Assembly (NCBI RefSeq): GCF_009930815.1 | Contig: NZ_CP022222.1 | Span: forward strand, 8,784,501 to 8,848,500 | Source: Bradyrhizobium sp. CCBAU 051011 | Lineage (GTDB): Bacteria > Pseudomonadota > Alphaproteobacteria > Rhizobiales > Xanthobacteraceae | Direction of reading: 5' to 3' | DNA length: 64,000 bases | Part shown: piece after piece, positions 16,372 to 24,050 of the stretch | How positions within the stretch are numbered: position 1 is the first letter of the stretch | How the letters are laid out: every line of letters starts with the position of its first letter | The notes under the pieces: generated by a model | What the model saw: only the letters and a program-made list of their open reading frames with translations | Database searches by the model: none | What the model was told of the DNA's origin: nothing | Translations under genes and position numbers: made by a program

Positions 16372-16431
16372 TTCCGGCACAATGACCTTTTTCAGCGGGA
16401 GGCAAACGATAGTAAGCGCTTAGCCGCAACC

Positions 16432-18021
16432 CTATTGATGCTGGCTTGACGTTTTGCGGAACCGCCATGGCATGAGGTCGTCGATTTCGCTTTGGGGATG
16501 GCCGGCAATGATCGCCGTGAGCGTTTCGGCGATGTAGGCGACCGGGTTGACGTCGTTGAGCTTACAGGTCGCCACGATGGATGCGAGCAAGGCCCAATTT
16601 TTGGCTCCGACCTCATGACCGGCGAAGAGCGCGTTTTTTCTGGTCAAGCAGATTGGCCGGATCGCGTTTTCAACCGGATTGGTGTCGAGCTCGAGACGCC
16701 CGTCATCGAGGAAGCGCGTCAGCCCCTGCCAATGATTGAGCGCGTAGCGGATGTCATCAGCGAGCGTCGAGCCGCTGGAGATCATCGACAGCTGTTTCTC
16801 GAACCACGGCTTCAACGCCTCGACGAGCGGCAGCGAGTGTTCCTTGCGCGCGGCCAGCCTGATAACCGGCGATGAACCGCGTACCATGGCTTCGATGGCG
16901 TAGAGCTGTGCGATCTGCCGGACGGCGGCCTCGGCGATCGGCGATTTACTGTTGCGGGCCAATTTGACGAAGCGCCGGCGCAAATGGCTCCAGCAATGTA
17001 CGAGCGTCCACGGCCCTTGCGGTCGGGCAACTTCGATCAGCCGATCATAACCGTCATAGGCATCGCATTGCAGGAAGCGTCCGTTGAAGCTGTCCAGGAA
17101 CTGCTCAGCGAAGGCGCCGCTGCGACCGGGGGCATATCGGAACAGCACGATCGGCGGACTTGGGCCGCTATGGCCGCGGTCGTCGGAGACGATCGCCCAG
17201 AAGTAGCCCTTCTTCGTTTGACCACGCCCGGGATCGAGCACCGGCGCCGTGGTTTCATCCATGAACAGGCGATCCGCCGCTGCCAGATGGCGGCGCATGT
17301 GGTCGGCAACGGGCTGCAGATGGAAGCAGGCGCGGCCTGACCAATTGCCCAGTGTCGCTCGATCAAGCCGGATTCCCTGGCGCGCATAGATCTCGGCCTG
17401 ACGGTAAAACGGCGTATGGTCGCCAAACTTGGAGACGATCACCTGCGCAATCGCCGCTTCGGTCGGTAGTCCGCCAGGCACGACATGCTCCGGCGCGTGC
17501 GCCTGCACGACAGGGCCGGAGCAGCGGCGGCAGATGTATTTCGGGCGGCGCGTGACCAGCACGCGCCATTGTGCCGGGATCACGTCAAGGCGCTTGCTGA
17601 CGTCCTCGCCGATCTTCGTCATCGCGCCGCAGCCGCACGGACAGAACGTGCTCGCAGGCTCAAGGATCCGCTCCACCCGCGGCAAATGGGCAGGCAAGCA
17701 GCCCCGGTTGCGATGACGGTCCTGATCCGATCCAGCACGCGATCGGCCCCTGATGACCGCCGCAGCCTTCTCCTGTGCCGCGTCCAGGACGCCTTGCGCG
17801 ATCTCCACGTCTTCGAGCGGCAAATGATATTGATCTGGCCGCAGCTTCTCGGACTTCGCTCCGAACTTCTCTCGGCGTAGTTCCCCGAGAATGACCTCCA
17901 ACCGGCGCCGCGCTTCTTCCGACGTTGCCAGCGCCGCTTGATGTTCGCTCAATGCTGCCTGCGTTTGCGCTAAAAGCGCCTTCAGGCGTTCATTCTCGTC
18001 GCGAAGCGTCGCGGTGCTCAT
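16432..18021 (-). CDS. tnpC: IS66-family transposase TnpC
   Basis: From the ATG at 18021 (MSTATLRDENERLKALLAQT) the product has about 529 residues. It shows the N-terminal leucine-rich coiled coil, the basic LRREKFGAKSEKL helix, a Cys-rich zinc finger region (FCPCGCGAM and YICRRCSG), a DDE domain with DRLFMDETTAPVLDPGRGQT (Asp), QCDAYDGYDRL (Asp) and ELDTNPVENAIRP (Glu), and the IS66 C-terminal SQSEIDDLMPW-type end. The frame is intact. TnpC is the catalytic transposase of IS66; movement also needs TnpB, which is broken here. Confidence 0.94.
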   Translation of the reverse strand: MSTATLRDENERLKALLAQTQAALSEHQAALATSEEARRRLEVILGELRREKFGAKSEKLRPDQYHLPLEDVEIAQGVLDAAQEKAAAVIRGRSRAGSDQDRHRNRGCLPAHLPRVERILEPASTFCPCGCGAMTKIGEDVSKRLDVIPAQWRVLVTRRPKYICRRCSGPVVQAHAPEHVVPGGLPTEAAIAQVIVSKFGDHTPFYRQAEIYARQGIRLDRATLGNWSGRACFHLQPVADHMRRHLAAADRLFMDETTAPVLDPGRGQTKKGYFWAIVSDDRGHSGPSPPIVLFRYAPGRSGAFAEQFLDSFNGRFLQCDAYDGYDRLIEVARPQGPWTLVHCWSHLRRRFVKLARNSKSPIAEAAVRQIAQLYAIEAMVRGSSPVIRLAARKEHSLPLVEALKPWFEKQLSMISSGSTLADDIRYALNHWQGLTRFLDDGRLELDTNPVENAIRPICLTRKNALFAGHEVGAKNWALLASIVATCKLNDVNPVAYIAETLTAIIAGHPQSEIDDLMPWRFRKTSSQHQ

Positions 18022-18089
18022 GCGCCATGTCGAGCACATCTGCGCCGCCGGCGCCATGCCCAACTCGGTACAGAGTCATTCTGCCGCAC

Positions 18090-18280
18090 TTATCCAGCGA
18101 CCTGTGGACGCCGCGCTTCCTCCGGGCGGACCAACCGCCAATCCAGGCCCTCGAACAGCGCGGCGAACATCGCCGGCGATATCCGCATCACGCCGTTCGC
18201 CATCTTTGGCCACACGAACTTGCAACCCTCGAGACGTTTGTGCACCGTAAGCGGCAAGGAAACCCCGTCTGGCGGAGTGG
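18090..18280 (-). pseudogene. IS66 tnpB, 3' part
   Basis: The reverse strand encodes the last 60 or so residues of an IS66 TnpB: GVSLPLTVHKRLEGCKFVWP through FEGLDWRLVRPEE to a TAA. Upstream of position 18280 the frame runs into the terminus (GTAAGCG) of the second IS66. The matching 5' part is 4 kb away at 22219-22335. About 20 codons from the middle of tnpB cannot be found on either side. Confidence 0.85.
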
Positions 18281-18330
18281 GTAAGCGATCGGCTATCGGC
18301 TGCTGAGTTTGTGAGCCGATGTGAGCTTCT

Positions 18331-18714
18331 ATGTCTGCGCCTAGTTCTGGAACTAGAACCTTCCATATGATCGAAGCGGTCGCCGACCGTCTTGAGGGAG
18401 CGCCGCGGCAGCTTCGCCGACGCTGGTCGGACGAGTTCAAAGCGCAAGTTGTGACAGAGGCGCTGGAGCCTGGCGCGAGCGTCTCGGCGATCGCCCGCCG
18501 GATCGGCATTCACCCGTCGCAGCTGTTCGCCTGGCGCCGTGATGCTCGGGCCGAGCGGCATTATCGCTCGCGGCACTCGAGTTGCGAGGGTGTGGTGGCG
18601 TCTGTGGCAGGCACAGTGATTGAGATTGCCATTGGCGAGGTGGTCGTGCGTGCCGGCGTGGACGTCGACGAGGCGCACTTGCAGCGGGTGATCCGGGCGG
18701 TGCGTTCGGCATGA
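18331..18714 (+). CDS. tnpA: IS66 accessory protein TnpA
   Basis: Up to 127 residues; the ATG at 18367 (MIEAVADRLEGAPRQLRRRW) is the more usual start. The helix-turn-helix is seen in EPGASVSAIARRIGIHPSQL followed by FAWRRDA, and the end, LQRVIRAVRSA, is shared with other IS66 TnpA proteins. It overlaps the following tnpB fragment by the ATGA motif. TnpA helps IS66 transposition, probably by DNA binding; here its partners are truncated, so it is likely a passenger. Confidence 0.85.
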   Translation: MSAPSSGTRTFHMIEAVADRLEGAPRQLRRRWSDEFKAQVVTEALEPGASVSAIARRIGIHPSQLFAWRRDARAERHYRSRHSSCEGVVASVAGTVIEIAIGEVVVRAGVDVDEAHLQRVIRAVRSA

Positions 18715-18818
18715 TTCCCTCGGGTGTGAAGGTGTTCCTCGCCAGCCATCCAGTCGACTTCCGCAAGGGTATCGATGGCCTTGTTGCGCTTGTGCGCGAT
18801 GCGGGCTCAGATCCGTTC
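18711..18818 (+). pseudogene. IS66 tnpB, 5' fragment
   Basis: The first 36 codons encode a standard TnpB N-terminus (VFLASHPVDFRKGIDGLVAL) up to Asp-Pro-Phe, after which the frame enters the RIT inverted repeat and soon stops. The break is at the same Asp-Pro-Phe codons as in the tnpB fragment on the other side of the RIT element. Confidence 0.85.
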
Positions 18819-18901
18819 TTATGTGTCGGACGAGATTATGTGGCGGAGGCGCCCTAACGCCAGCCAGGGCCGGCCACGGCTAGATTCATCCGCCACATAA
18901 T
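18819..18901. repeat. Left RIT inverted repeat with inner recombinase arms
   Basis: The outer about 60 bases match the reverse complement of the right end. Within it ATTATGTGGCGGA (18835-18847) and its exact complement (18889-18901) face each other with 41 bases between, a likely pair of recombinase binding sites. Confidence 0.8.
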
Positions 18902-18960
18902 ATTTTGTGTCCCTCGTGCGGACGCGGGATCCCCCTGCGCCGTAACGCCGGAGGGGCACA

Positions 18961-20199
18961 ATGCTCGAGTTCTATTTTTCGTACGGCGGGGTGCTTAAAC
19001 GCCTTCGTGACGGGGCGCTCGGCGCCGAGATGGATCGCATCGCGGGGCACTTTTTCTCGCTCGGTTACAAGCAAGCATCCGCCAAGCTTTATCTGAGCCG
19101 GATCGCGCGGTTCGGCCGTTTTGCTGCAGCACATTGCGGTTCACGGCCGATCGGCGAAGCTATCGTCGATAGCTATTTATGCACATTCAGCACGGACTCA
19201 CCGCGGATTGCGGCAATGTCCGCGCTTCAACACGCGCGGCGGGTGGCGCCCGAACGATTCATTGTGTCGGCGCCCGGTGTAGTCAATGATCCGGACGCTC
19301 CGCTTCTGAGCTCCTTTTCGGATTATCTAAGCAGGGTACGAGGCCTTGAGCCAAGGTCCCGCGATGGCGTTCTCTTGGGCGCGCGGCGCTTTCTGGATTG
19401 GCTCCGCCATCGCCATCCTGGCCAAGACCTCGAGGCGTTGACGGCAGAGCATGTCCTTGCCGCTGTCGAGTATCGGCTGTCGCTCTCGGCGACCTCCGGC
19501 ACTCGCACGGCGGCGATCTCTCACATCCGAACGTTTCTCCGCTTTCTGCATTGGGGTGGCCACCACGAGCAGGATCTGGCCCCCGTCGTTCCAAGAACGC
19601 CATATTGGAGACTGGCCCATTTACCGCCCCGGCTTTCGTGGGATGATGTTCGCCGCGCCATCGATGCGATCGGCACGGCGACGCCGATCGACCTTCGCGA
19701 TCGAGCTGTCCTGCTGCTGCTCGCCACCACAGGCATTCGCAACGGCGAGTTGCGCGCTCTTCAGCTCCAGGATATCGACTGGCGAGCTGGCGAGGTTTTT
19801 GTCCGACGCACCAAGAGCAAGCGTGACCGAGTGGCCCCGCTCCTCGAGGAGGCCGGTGGCGCACTCGCCGAGTACATCCTGCGGGTTCGACCGAAGGTCG
19901 ATAGTCCGTATCTGTTCCTGTCTTTCACGCCGCCCGTGGGACCGTTCAAGTACGCGCCGTCTGTTTCGAGGATCGTGCGGAAGCGGTTGCAGCATGGCGG
20001 GATCGAGCTCGGTCGCGTCGCAGGCGCGCATCTCCTGCGCCACAGTCTAGCCACCCAGCTCGTCGGGCGACGAAGGCCGATTAATGAGGTCGCCGATCTT
20101 CTCGGGCACCGAAGCATCAACACAACGGCGCTGTACGTGAAGGTCGCGGTTTCGCAGCTCGCTGAGGTCGCGCTCCCCTTTCCGGGAGGTGCCGCATGA
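18961..20199 (+). CDS. ritA: Tyrosine recombinase RitA
   Basis: A 412-residue integrase of the phage-integrase superfamily. The N-terminal part (about 1-200) is the SAM-like core-binding domain; the catalytic domain carries LLATTGIRNGELRAL (first Arg), HLLRHSLATQL (His357, Arg360), LLGHRSINTT (His) and the nucleophile Tyr392 in TTALYVK. A GGAGGGG site precedes the ATG. It is the first of three coupled genes; its stop overlaps the start of ritB in ATGA. RIT recombinases are thought to act together at the element ends. Confidence 0.92.
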   Translation: MLEFYFSYGGVLKRLRDGALGAEMDRIAGHFFSLGYKQASAKLYLSRIARFGRFAAAHCGSRPIGEAIVDSYLCTFSTDSPRIAAMSALQHARRVAPERFIVSAPGVVNDPDAPLLSSFSDYLSRVRGLEPRSRDGVLLGARRFLDWLRHRHPGQDLEALTAEHVLAAVEYRLSLSATSGTRTAAISHIRTFLRFLHWGGHHEQDLAPVVPRTPYWRLAHLPPRLSWDDVRRAIDAIGTATPIDLRDRAVLLLLATTGIRNGELRALQLQDIDWRAGEVFVRRTKSKRDRVAPLLEEAGGALAEYILRVRPKVDSPYLFLSFTPPVGPFKYAPSVSRIVRKRLQHGGIELGRVAGAHLLRHSLATQLVGRRRPINEVADLLGHRSINTTALYVKVAVSQLAEVALPFPGGAA

Positions 20200-21128
20200 G
20201 CGCCTTCGCCGCATTCCTCGGCGAGAAGGTCGAGCGTTACATCGAGCTGCGCCGCTCCCTCGGCTACGCCTTCAACAAGCAAGCCGGCACGCTGCGGGCT
20301 TTTGTTCGCTACGTCGAGCGCTGTCAGCTGGATGCGCCCGCCAACCGGACGATGGCGCTGGACTTCGTCCTGTCGTTTAGCGGCGCCGCCGACAGTCGGG
20401 CCGTTCGTCACGGCGTGCTTCGCCGATTCTACGAGTACCTGGCCATCTACGCGCCCCGGACCGAGGCCTTGGAGCGCAGAGCCTTCCCTAGGTCCAGGGC
20501 GATTCCGCCGCCGCGCATCCTAAGCGAGGCTGAGCTGGCGTCGCTAATCGACGCATGCAGCTTCATTTCGCCAAGGATCCCTCTCAGGGGCCGCACGATG
20601 GCAACGCTGATCGGATTGTTGGCCAGCACGGGGCTACGATCCGGCGAAGTGGTCAAGCTTGATCGCGGCGACGTCGATCTGACCAACGGGGTCGTCCTCG
20701 TCCGTAAGACCAAGTTCCGTAAAGACCGCGTGGTTCCTGTTCATCCAACGACCCTGGCAGCCCTTCGTCGATATGCCCGCGAGCGCGACAACGTGTTTTC
20801 CAGTCCGAAGGACGAGGCCTTCTTCCTCAGCTCACGAGGCTGCCGTCTGTCGGCGACCGGCCTGCAAAGCAACTTCGCTAAAGCCCGCAAGCTCGCGGGT
20901 CTTGATGATGGTAAGCCCTTGCGACCGCACGATCTCCGGCACCGGTTCGCGGTGACCAGGCTCAGGCTGTGGCACCAACAGCGCGCAGACGTCCAAGCGC
21001 TGCTGCCTTTACTCGCCACCTACCTCGGCCACGCCAGCTATACCGACACGGCCTACTACCTCACCGGCTCGTCGGATCTCCTCGCCATCGCGGCTGAGCG
21101 CGCCTTCCTCGACGGGGGCGCGGCATGA
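20196..21128 (+). CDS. ritB: Tyrosine recombinase RitB
   Basis: A 310-residue tyrosine recombinase, shorter than RitA. Catalytic residues are seen in LLASTGLRSGEVVKLDRGDV (Arg), KTKFRKDRVVP (Lys strand), RPHDLRHRFAVTRL (His-xx-Arg), YLGHASYTDT (His) and the Tyr pair in TDTAYYLTG near 287-288. The N-terminal domain is about 110 residues. Translation is coupled to both neighbours through 4-bp overlaps, which suggests equal production of the three proteins. Confidence 0.92.
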   Translation: MSAFAAFLGEKVERYIELRRSLGYAFNKQAGTLRAFVRYVERCQLDAPANRTMALDFVLSFSGAADSRAVRHGVLRRFYEYLAIYAPRTEALERRAFPRSRAIPPPRILSEAELASLIDACSFISPRIPLRGRTMATLIGLLASTGLRSGEVVKLDRGDVDLTNGVVLVRKTKFRKDRVVPVHPTTLAALRRYARERDNVFSSPKDEAFFLSSRGCRLSATGLQSNFAKARKLAGLDDGKPLRPHDLRHRFAVTRLRLWHQQRADVQALLPLLATYLGHASYTDTAYYLTGSSDLLAIAAERAFLDGGAA

Positions 21129-22132
21129 GCGAGCACCTCCTACTAGCGCCGCTCCTGGAGTCGTACTTTCGTCGCCGGTTGACCAAGCAGCGCAACGCCA
21201 CCTCCGCGACCTTGGCCAGCTATCGCGACGCCTTGCGCATGCTGATCCTCTTTGCCGCCGCCCGTTTGGGGAGGAAGCCGGCGGCGCTGGCCCTTGAGGA
21301 TCTCGATCGCGACCTTGTTCTCGCCTTTCTCGACGAGCTCGAGGAGAAGCGGAACAACTCCGTCGCAACGCGCAACGCCCGACTAGCCGCGATCCGATCC
21401 TTCTTCCATCACGTCGCCGCCGCCGATCCGGCCTCGTTCGGCGTCGCCCAACGGGTTCTGACGATCCCCACCAAACGGGCCCACATCGAGGTGACGCACC
21501 ACCTCACCAACGCCGAGGTGGAGGCCATCATCGCAGCCCCTGATCAGACGACGCCCCGCGGCCGGCGCGACCGGGCCTTTCTGCTCTTCTTGGCGAGAAC
21601 CGGCGCCCGCGTGTCCGAAGCGACCGGCGTCAACGCGAACGACCTTCAATTGGAGCGAGGACGCCCGCAGGTGCTGCTTCACGGCAAGGGACGCCGAGAT
21701 CGCGTCGTTCCCATTCCTCAGGATTTGGTGCGATCGCTGACCGACCTATTGAGCGAACGCGGCCTCGCCCATCATGAACCGCGGCCAATCTTCGTCGGGG
21801 TCCACAACGAGCGCCTGACGCGTTTCGGCGCGACACATATCGTGCGGCGTGCCGCCTCCCAGGCCGGGTCCACGAGGCCAAGCTTAGAGAGCAAGCCGAT
21901 ATCGCCGCACATCTTCCGGCATTCCCTCGCCATGAAGCTTCTCCGGTCAGGCGTGGACCTCCTGACAATCCAGGCTTGGCTTGGCCATGCTCAGGTCGCC
22001 ACAACCCACCGATACGCCGCTGCGGATGTCGAGATGATGCGGCGTGGACTCGAGAAGGCGGGCGTTGCAGGCGACCGCAGCGCGCGCTTCCGGCCGAACG
22101 ACGCTGTCCTGCAACTCCTGGACAGCATCTGA
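21125..22132 (+). CDS. ritC: Tyrosine recombinase RitC
   Basis: A 335-residue tyrosine recombinase with an N-terminal core-binding domain (LESYFRRRLTKQRNATSATL) and a catalytic domain with LFLARTGARVSEATGVNAND (Arg), KGRRDRVVPIP, SPHIFRHSLAMKLL (His-xx-Arg), WLGHAQVATTHRYA (His and nucleophile Tyr297). The stop codon lies three bases before the inner arm of the right inverted repeat. All three RIT proteins keep their full catalytic set, so the element may be active. Confidence 0.92.
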   Translation: MSEHLLLAPLLESYFRRRLTKQRNATSATLASYRDALRMLILFAAARLGRKPAALALEDLDRDLVLAFLDELEEKRNNSVATRNARLAAIRSFFHHVAAADPASFGVAQRVLTIPTKRAHIEVTHHLTNAEVEAIIAAPDQTTPRGRRDRAFLLFLARTGARVSEATGVNANDLQLERGRPQVLLHGKGRRDRVVPIPQDLVRSLTDLLSERGLAHHEPRPIFVGVHNERLTRFGATHIVRRAASQAGSTRPSLESKPISPHIFRHSLAMKLLRSGVDLLTIQAWLGHAQVATTHRYAAADVEMMRRGLEKAGVAGDRSARFRPNDAVLQLLDSI

Positions 22133-22134
22133 TC

Positions 22135-22217
22135 ATTATGTGGCGGAGAAATCTGGGCGTAGCCGGTCCTGGCTGGCGTTAGGGTGCCTCCGCCACATAA
22201 TCTCGTCCGACACATAA
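22135..22217. repeat. Right RIT inverted repeat with inner recombinase arms
   Basis: Mirror image of the left end. ATTATGTGGCGGA at 22135-22147 and TCCGCCACATAAT at 22189-22201 repeat the same 41-base spacing. The inner arm overlaps the region just after the stop codon of ritC. Confidence 0.8.
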
Positions 22218-22218
22218 G

Positions 22219-22335
22219 AACGGATCGAGACCAAGCATCTCCCTGCACCTTCGCAGCAAGCCCATCGTGCCCACAGCGGAAGTCGACGGGCCGCGTCGCG
22301 ATGTAAATCTTTAGCTCGGCGCCGGGGACAATCAT
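22219..22335 (-). pseudogene. IS66 tnpB, 5' fragment of the older element
   Basis: It starts ATG in a 4-bp overlap with tnpA and encodes IYIATRPVDFRCGHDGLAAK, a TnpB N-terminus. One extra G in CAGGGAG shifts the frame: without it the sequence would read on as Val-Gln-Glu-Met-Leu-Gly-Leu-Asp-Pro-Phe. It then stops at GATCCGTTC, where the RIT repeat begins. The 3' part is at 18090-18280. Confidence 0.85.
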
Positions 22336-22796
22336 CGCGACGCCCGCACCGCGCGAATCACTCGAGATAGCTGCTCCCCATCTATCGCCGCGTCCGTCCG
22401 CACGACGACGTCGCCAATCGCAATCTCGAGCTTGACTGTCGGAACGTGACGCTCCTCAAACGGCCCCTCCACGACCAGCGGCGCGAACGGCGGCTGCGGA
22501 GCCTCGCACGACGGCAATTCGCCGCGCTGTTGGAAGCGTCGTCGCCAATCGTAAATTTGCCAGCGCGTCGCCCCGTGCTTGCGGGCCACCTCCGCTACCT
22601 GAGCGCCGGGCAGCAGACTTTCGGCGACGATCCGAGCCCGCTCGGCCTCTGAACGCACGCGACGCCCGGACGGTCCCTCAAGCACCTCAAGCCGACTGAC
22701 TGCTCCAGACCCAACTGATGAGCTGTCCAAATGGGCGCCTTTTTTGCCGTCCAATCCCATCCCAAACCTCCGTTCAAGCCGGAGGCTTCTTCGCAC
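22332..22796 (-). CDS. tnpA: IS66 accessory protein TnpA (older element)
   Basis: Up to 154 residues; a start at the Met in MGLDGKKGAHLDSS (22760) is more likely. The helix-turn-helix region is LLPGAQVAEVARKHGATRWQ followed by IYDWRRRF, and the end, EQLSRVIRAVRAS, is the usual TnpA tail. It begins about 40 bp inside the right terminus of the 6.4-kb IS66 unit and is the first gene of its tnpABC operon. Confidence 0.85.
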   Translation of the reverse strand: MRRSLRLERRFGMGLDGKKGAHLDSSSVGSGAVSRLEVLEGPSGRRVRSEAERARIVAESLLPGAQVAEVARKHGATRWQIYDWRRRFQQRGELPSCEAPQPPFAPLVVEGPFEERHVPTVKLEIAIGDVVVRTDAAIDGEQLSRVIRAVRASR

Positions 22797-22847
22797 ATCT
22801 AATCCAACCCCGAAGCCAGGGTATTGGCTGAGCGCTTACAAACGATA

Positions 22848-24050
22848 TTAAGTCGTCGGCCGATAACGCTGCGTTGCACGCTGGACTGTACCCACGAAGT
22901 GCGAGGCAAACGCAGCCACGCGAGCGCTGACATCGGGCAACAGATTTCTGATCAATGCAGGTTCAGGATTCTGAGATACCTTCGCGAGATGATTGGCGAG
23001 TGATAAAGGGTCGTCGATGCCGAAATAGCTTGCCTTCCCATCTGTCTGCTCGCGATGTACGTCAATGTTCGACAAGATCATTGGTACGCCAAACGACTTT
23101 GCCTCCTCCACTGTCGTACTCCAGCCTTCGAAGCGCGACGGATTGATCAGGGCGGTAGCAGCGCGCAGCAGAGCGTAGACATGAGGCAGCGGAACCATTC
23201 CAAGATAACGGAAGTTCTTTTCAAGCCCGCGCCCGACGACCTGGCTCATGATCATGTCAAAATACTGGGGTTCTCGAGCGTCATGCTTGCTGCCGGAGGC
23301 CGCGACGACAACATCGTCTCCGCGGTTCACCAGGATTGCCAACGCGTCGACCACGACTTGATGGTTTTTATGCCGCCAAAACTGATTAGGCAGATAGAAA
23401 AATTTTAGCGGCAATCCGTAGTGCTCGATGACGTCAGACGGATTTGCGGTCAGAAGATCGGGCGGCGGCTGCGTCGCAAACCTCACGACAGAGGTACGAT
23501 GAGCTACTCCCGGATAAAGCTTTTGGCAGTCGCGAAGCGCGCTCTTACTGCTGAGCATGATGGTGCGGCCCGATGCGATTTGCACGCGAAAACCGAACTC
23601 GCGTTGCCATCGCGCGGCTGGCGAAAAAAGCTGCGGCAGTCGTCGATGCTGAAAGTCCGGAAACCAGGCCACCGCGGGGTATGGCAGACGCCAACCAAAG
23701 AACCGGGCAGATTCGAAAACAACGTCGACCTTCCGTTCCCGGAATTCAGCTACCGCCGCATAGTCAAGCCCGAGTGAAAGGGCTGCAGCGAAACCGGCGC
23801 GGCGTCGGTCGAAAGCTGCGGATTGCGAGATCTCGACGCCTGGGATGCGCGCAAGAGCCTCGAGATCGGCGGCATCGTCCTGCTCGCCTGCGAAAACAAC
23901 CGGCGCAATCTCGCCTTGGCGGTAACGGTTCAGGGCCGCAAACAAGTTGCTTTGGTAGTTATATCCACCGGCCCAAAGCCGCCGAGGAATAATGGTGAAT
24001 GCAACGCGAAAGGGGCCGCGAGCGGTCAACGAGCCTGTTCCTTGAACCAC
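22848..24050 (-). CDS. Glycosyltransferase, GT4-like (GT-B fold)
   Basis: About 400 residues. The C-terminal nucleotide-sugar domain is clear: FFYLPNQFWRHKNHQVVVDA, FRYLGMVPLPHVYALLRAAT, and ALINPSRFEGWSTTVEEAKS with the EX7E-type pair, then GVPMILSNIDVHRE. The start is a GTG at 24050 that overlaps the end of the upstream epimerase gene by 25 bp. It is the last gene of the large - strand operon, and IS66 inserted directly after its stop codon (TAA at 22848-22850), leaving the protein complete. It probably adds one sugar of the repeat unit on the cytosolic membrane face. Confidence 0.85.
   Translation of the reverse strand: MVQGTGSLTARGPFRVAFTIIPRRLWAGGYNYQSNLFAALNRYRQGEIAPVVFAGEQDDAADLEALARIPGVEISQSAAFDRRRAGFAAALSLGLDYAAVAEFRERKVDVVFESARFFGWRLPYPAVAWFPDFQHRRLPQLFSPAARWQREFGFRVQIASGRTIMLSSKSALRDCQKLYPGVAHRTSVVRFATQPPPDLLTANPSDVIEHYGLPLKFFYLPNQFWRHKNHQVVVDALAILVNRGDDVVVAASGSKHDAREPQYFDMIMSQVVGRGLEKNFRYLGMVPLPHVYALLRAATALINPSRFEGWSTTVEEAKSFGVPMILSNIDVHREQTDGKASYFGIDDPLSLANHLAKVSQNPEPALIRNLLPDVSARVAAFASHFVGTVQRATQRYRPTT

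Follow-up and report, generated by a model that had tools for sequence, protein, structure and literature searches.

How did a truncated insertion sequence (IS) of the IS66 family and a three-recombinase RIT element come to lie within the tnpB gene of a second IS66 copy in Bradyrhizobium sp. CCBAU 051011, all in a single target site? The locus is part of a 64,000-nucleotide stretch of contig NZ_CP022222.1 (positions 8,784,501 to 8,848,500; the genome is a single contig of 9.1 Mb), hereafter the window, to whose own numbering the coordinates below refer. Based on the junctions of these elements and on the flanks of related RITs, the arrangement looks like a site-specific deletion product in which one RIT joins the N-terminal halves of two tnpB genes (N-RIT-N), and the RIT clade to which it belongs appears to target IS66 tnpB via an attachment site in which two inverted cores are symmetrically placed.

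Two tnpB genes joined to one RIT

Both edges of the RIT are formed by the N-terminal halves of two different tnpB genes, set head to head and cut at the same codons. Relative to the intact 2536-bp IS66 of another genome (L100; such labels denote compared loci), the outer tnpB lacks exactly 80 bp and in addition carries a one-base (+1 G) frameshift. The gap begins right after GATCCGTTC (GAT-CCGTTC, Asp-Pro-Phe) and ends at the base where the inner IS66 enters, while the inner IS66 breaks off at these same six bases within its own tnpB, a site that is uninterrupted in all six other copies inspected. This joining of the RIT to two tnpB genes by their N-terminal halves would account for the truncation of the inner IS66. 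An earlier sequence-only reading had described three mobile elements nested in one target site; the single target site stands, as shown below, but the RIT is not simply nested, being joined to two different genes. On the forward strand the order is outer tnpC (-), C-terminal part of outer tnpB (-), start of the inner IS66 (+), RIT (+), N-terminal part of outer tnpB (-) and outer tnpA (-):

16404..16411, no strand: left 8-bp target duplication AAACGATA of the outer IS66 (direct repeat and empty-site comparison)
16412..16433, +: left inverted end of the outer IS66, GTAAGCGCTTAGCC... (matching end in the intact copies L100, L101 and L103)
16432..18063, -: outer tnpC, DDE transposase, 543 amino acids (PF03050, 1.1e-95)
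18090..18246, -: outer tnpB, C-terminal part (open reading frame and comparison with L098 and L100)
18239-18246, -: presumed left duplication of the inner IS66, TGTGCACC, the last 8 bases of the C-terminal part of outer tnpB (L098)
18247..18818, +: inner IS66, first 572 bp of an intact length of 2497 bp (matches to L164, L165 and L173-L176)
18331-18714, +: inner tnpA, within the inner IS66 fragment
18711-18818, +: inner tnpB, N-terminal part, within the inner IS66 fragment
18813..18818, +: putative left crossover core CCGTTC, Asp-Pro-Phe codons of inner tnpB (junction comparison)
18819..22217, +: RIT element, inverted ends 18819-18901 / 22135-22217, palindrome on neither side
18961..20199, +: ritA, tyrosine recombinase, 412 amino acids (PF00589, 3.6e-31)
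20196..21128, +: ritB, tyrosine recombinase, 310 amino acids (PF00589, 6.3e-25)
21125..22132, +: ritC, tyrosine recombinase, 335 amino acids (PF00589, 1.8e-36)
22218..22223, -: putative right crossover core CCGTTC, Asp-Pro-Phe codons of outer tnpB (junction comparison)
22218..22335, -: outer tnpB, N-terminal part, with one extra G (frameshift) (PF05717, 22.5 bits, under the cut-off of 26.6)
22332..22796, -: outer tnpA, 154 amino acids (PF01527, 7.6e-10)
22818..22839, -: right inverted end of the outer IS66 (matching end in intact copies)
22840..22847, no strand: right 8-bp target duplication AAACGATA (direct repeat)

The RIT measures 3399 bp between the cores and its inverted arms are 92% alike; a repeat finder, which counts the shared tnpB bases, gave an inverted repeat of 92 nt at 92%. 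Its recombinase genes overlap by 4 bases at both ritA/ritB and ritB/ritC, and HxxRH, LGH and then Y are legible by eye in all three unaligned translations; no NCBIfam model matched the Rit proteins at its cut-off. Gene order and protein sizes fit the RIT descriptions in passages of PMC3414803 and PMC10214605, and the three overlapping genes of expected size, together with the inverted ends, support the assignment to the RITs made earlier from the layout. The element is present once in the home genome, and its closest named relatives are from Bradyrhizobium (RitA 91-94% identical). Each of its ends also holds an extra inverted pair, ATTATGTGGCGGAG ... CTCCGCCACATAAT, that looks like the half-palindrome TTATGTGGCG, and these pairs are possible additional recombinase binding sites.

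The outer IS66 (16412-22839) runs from GTAAGCGCTTAGCC... on the left to ...GGCTGAGCGCTTAC on the right, and copies of AAACGATA directly abut both ends (16404-16411 and 22840-22847). This 8-mer occurs four times in the window, against a mean of one in shuffles, and just two of the occurrences touch the IS66 ends. The right copy directly adjoins the stop codon of a glycosyltransferase gene at 22848. The left flanking gene was found in five of 146 genus genomes, the home genome included, and in the other four it stands side by side with the glycosyltransferase gene with no IS between them; the search for an empty site thus bears out the proposal that the whole 6.4 kb occupies one target site. IS66 units without the RIT likewise exist in other genomes: L100, L101 and L103, 98% identical to the outer element, carry none and are flanked by duplications of their own (GAACAAGC, GAAGGGGG and ACAGGTTC, respectively). 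The left and right parts of the outer element are 98.5% and 98.2% identical to L100, and both halves of its tnpB match this same intact IS66 and are of one type. The element has the tnpA, tnpB and tnpC genes, GTAAGCG ends and 8-bp duplication of the IS66 family, with its tnpB in two parts and 80 bp gone. Relatives were recovered from 59 of 257 genus genomes (E <= 1e-100), many of them partial, and the home genome has a single full-length match.

The inner IS66, a truncated element on the opposite strand inside the outer tnpB as first described, is represented by 18247-18818 (+), which is identical at 572/572 positions to L164 and L165 and at 571/572 to L173-L176, all in the home genome. As these six copies are identical or one base off over the 572 bp, the inner IS66 probably arrived recently. 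Intact home-genome copies of this type show tnpA, tnpB, tnpC, GTAAGCG ends and the 8-bp duplication; matching duplications surround the 2497 bp in three of the six and are absent from the other three, and the window copy retains the 572 bp and one presumed duplication only. L164 (from 751) and L165 (from 769) are identical over 1933 bp and then diverge; they lack matching 8-bp flanks and are possible recombinants between IS66 copies.

Target and attachment site among related RITs

RIT ends were gathered via their end motif, independently of their flanks; scanning species genomes supplied 26 loci, and the others came from a genus search and from 25 of 61 plasmid records with a DNA match. Duplicate stretches with identical flanks or coordinates (L030, L031, L032, L034-L037, L064, L098, L099 and L119) were dropped before the ends were counted, as were L001-L003, and loci from L164 onwards lie outside the count. 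The sample comprised 97 ends from 57 loci, with two of the ends running off contigs. Among the remaining 95, we observed 60 abutting the N-terminal half of tnpB, 26 abutting the C-terminal half and nine abutting neither, so that 86/95 lie at the TnpB site; merging near-identical flanks left 73 unique ones (43 N, 24 C and 6 neither), with 67/73 at that site. The cut falls mostly at TnpB residues 37-40. Among more distant plasmid RITs, that of Microvirga ossetica fits the tnpB rule on both sides and that of Methylovirgula on the one side tested. In Methylovirgula sp. HY1 the ritC of a RIT adjoining a tnpB half contains an IS66 that looks complete (L182, 5194-7588).

The two sides of the target differ in what separates them from the RIT. 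A 20-bp palindrome, TTATGTGGCGCGCCACATAA or a variant of it, stands between RIT and tnpB in 23 of the 24 unique C flanks and in none of the 43 N flanks, the C-side sequence reading CACATAA-GAACGG-TTATGTGGCGCGCCACATAA-CCGTTC-tnpB. Inverted CATAA/TTATG arms enclose each six-base core, and one core is inverted with respect to the other. In the 21 copies with one N and one C flank, ritA is beside the N half in nine and beside the C half in 12. Two pattern searches for the palindrome miss known variants (e.g. L006), so their counts are lower bounds: the relaxed pattern was found in at least five of 257 genus genomes, two with C-palindrome-C relics and three with RIT copies. One-mismatch matches in other genera of the family (L061 and L062) have no TnpB match and are apparently unrelated.

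Both orientations are exemplified within one strain, S. meliloti ml28, whose pSymA and pSymB RITs (L139, 2191-5587; L148, 2008-5404) differ at one of 3397 bases; they sit in different IS66 copies, themselves 92-97% alike, and point in opposite directions. The near-identity of the RITs against this divergence of their hosts suggests that the RIT moved separately from IS66. The slightly asymmetric palindromes of the pair read identically from ritC to ritA, a constant direction relative to the rit genes that matches the prediction of one circle opened at either core and disfavours flipping in place as the sole cause of both orientations; the argument comes from a single pair and a 2-base asymmetry.

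Besides the N-C copies, three further geometries were observed. N-RIT-N is found at eight loci, which we group into four contexts: the window, L017, S. medicae (four records) and S. kummerowiae (two records), and this geometry recurs in Mesorhizobium and Sinorhizobium. C-RIT-C is represented by one locus (L013). C-palindrome-C without a RIT occurs in two other genomes (L060 and L199), each time joining different IS66 types; such a junction could also remain after excision from a C-RIT-C copy.

A proposed mechanism and its alternatives

The junctions, the gap of exactly 80 bp, the rule for the target, the geometries of the products and the near-identical RITs in opposite orientation are all directly observed. 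On their basis we propose, with a probability of about 0.7, that this RIT clade uses the Asp-Pro-Phe codons of IS66 tnpB as its attachment target, moves as a two-core circle and formed the window arrangement by a deletion at a leftover core. The circular form would possess a dyad-symmetric site in which two inverted cores (CACATAA - 6 bp - TTATGTG) flank the 20-bp palindrome. Crossover with tnpB at either core would place the rit genes in either orientation, with the palindrome and the unused core always ending up on the TnpB C-terminal side, from where this leftover core could recombine with another tnpB to give N-RIT-N and C-palindrome-C. In the window, an active inner IS66 would have inserted in reverse into the outer tnpB, with one or the other tnpB occupied by a RIT; the leftover core would then have recombined with the second tnpB site, in direct orientation, so that everything between them was deleted: 80 bp of the outer tnpB, one copy of the duplication, the palindrome and the other 1925 bp of the inner IS66. 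Catalysis by the Rit proteins, the circle and the order of events are what we infer from these sequences, and either order would serve, because a RIT that first entered the inner IS66 and one that first entered the outer IS66 would lead to the same end product. Since its cores are inverted and its palindrome is gone, an N-RIT-N copy is predicted to be unable to leave: it could flip but not excise. With slightly less confidence, we posit that the Hyphomicrobiales RIT clade comprises dedicated IS66 parasites, with a tnpB codon triplet as attachment site and two-core symmetry, whose leftover core would splice IS66 copies by deletion or inversion, N-RIT-N copies being trapped and C-palindrome-C scars being the partners of such events or traces of excision. 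TnpB is needed for IS66 transposition, and the RIT would then be a killer of its host IS.

Several points weigh against this proposal. The reaction itself has not been observed and the circle was not found. Some TnpB matches are short or weak, with those of L028, L145, L146, L147, L152 and L153 reaching residue 25 only and the C-side match of L156 starting at residue 47; four of the nine ends beside neither tnpB half have one common flank, next to an IS91-type gene pair, and one C flank (L047) lacks the palindrome. Of the three more distant plasmid RITs, one (L184, Microvirga) is without a clear tnpB rule. A search for still more distant RITs matched seven of 337 genomes, the home genome included; nine loci in six of these genomes, with RitB 33-39% identical and with short flanks, gave no TnpB match, so that a tnpB rule for all RITs is rejected. 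By a hand tally, the N-side and C-side six-base cores agree in just 10/21 N-C copies, so strict core identity is not seen. A mismatch-tolerant six-base overlap must hence be assumed, and the disagreement means either that overlap identity is not strict or that cores were mutated or exchanged.

Homologous recombination could also yield the product in the window, if each IS66 had contained a RIT at this tnpB site and a crossover between the two 3.4-kb RITs, in direct orientation, had removed what lay between them; the end product would be identical and the target rule unchanged. RITs are known within the genus in both the inner (L044, L055-L057) and the outer (L024, L054) IS66 type. Such a route, however, needs a second RIT, whereas the home genome has one and none of the six other inner IS66 copies inspected contains it, and it offers no direct path to C-palindrome-C junctions without a RIT. 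In addition, a comparison of the window RIT with eight relatives in 200-bp windows, a weak test, revealed no clear break of the kind that a mosaic would leave. We hold this route to be distinctly less probable than a deletion at a leftover core.

The intact outer ends and 8-bp duplication would also be explained if a composite of IS66, truncated IS66 and RIT had formed elsewhere and transposed as one ready-made 6.4-kb unit, an account that is compatible with the RIT mechanism itself. Yet the home genome has one copy only of the outer IS66 and one of the RIT, the tnpB is broken, assembly in place takes fewer steps, and the genus searches recovered no second composite, nor did any plasmid record cover 80% of it; we consider this transposition improbable. 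Regions of this kind often contain nested IS elements in decay, and the outer tnpB also has an unrelated frameshift, but a single RIT insertion followed by random deletions and decay is very hard to credit: in two different tnpB genes the junctions fall at the same six bases, and Mesorhizobium and Sinorhizobium show the N-N geometry as well.

Relation to known elements

RITs have been encountered in transposase genes before: in Cupriavidus metallidurans CH34, whose RITs include ritA1B1C1, an IS66-family tnpA gene is interrupted by a RIT, according to an excerpt of PMC2864759, and the accessible portion of PMC3414803 reports RITs in the transposase gene of a Tn6049-like element. The same portion of this 2012 survey describes, on the flanks of ritA and ritC, a 28-9 bp inverted repeat overlapped by a palindromic sequence, treats RIT mobility as still to be demonstrated and gives no convincing binding sites beyond that repeat with its palindrome. 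Known RITs and the window element alike comprise three overlapping tyrosine recombinase genes, about 3.5 kb and inverted ends. Relative to those parts of PMC2864759 and PMC3414803, the clade of the window adds a fixed tnpB codon target, a two-core site whose palindrome keeps to one side of that target, and the N-N, C-C and C-palindrome-C products. A literature search found no tnpB codon target, two-core site or product classes of this kind, and part of the target preference may already be covered by Ricker et al. 2013 and Van Houdt et al. 2009; RITs, and RITs inside transposase genes, are already known, and we provisionally regard the tnpB target and the rearrangement rule as new.

The 6-nt staggered cuts with changeable letters given for GInts in part of PMC5385486 are a precedent for a mismatch-tolerant six-base overlap. 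GInt islands and SE elements, with several tyrosine recombinases and a small protein, resemble the window RIT in their adjacent recombinases and site-specific integration; they differ in having a fourth gene and cargo, whereas the RIT has inverted ends and three genes only, which fill the element, no further gene of the ginABCD kind being identified in it. Both hosts in the window belong to the IS66 family by their tnpA-tnpB-tnpC genes, GTAAGCG ends and 8-bp duplications, and both copies are broken in tnpB. A six-base, mismatch-tolerant overlap would work like the coupling sequences of Tn916-type elements, from which the RIT clade is set apart by one conserved gene target and two cores.

With a target, an attachment site and four types of product now defined, RIT recombination can be tested directly in laboratory strains, and ml28 would be a good strain for a test of mobility. 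The RIT would be a parasite of a parasite, harboured in a conserved gene of another mobile element whose copies it may reshuffle.

Two further observations concern RIT ends and forms. At L140, L152, L154, L157 and L161 the same foreign sequence, GGACTAACCCGCTCC..., starts at one RIT end and adjoins a tyrosine recombinase gene and, where annotation extends that far, an IS91 family transposase gene; it perhaps belongs to an IS91-type element with the RIT end as its target. A contig of Bradyrhizobium nanningense (L004, 1-3405) consists of a RIT and a few extra bases at each end, which suggests a repeat present in multiple contexts or a circle.

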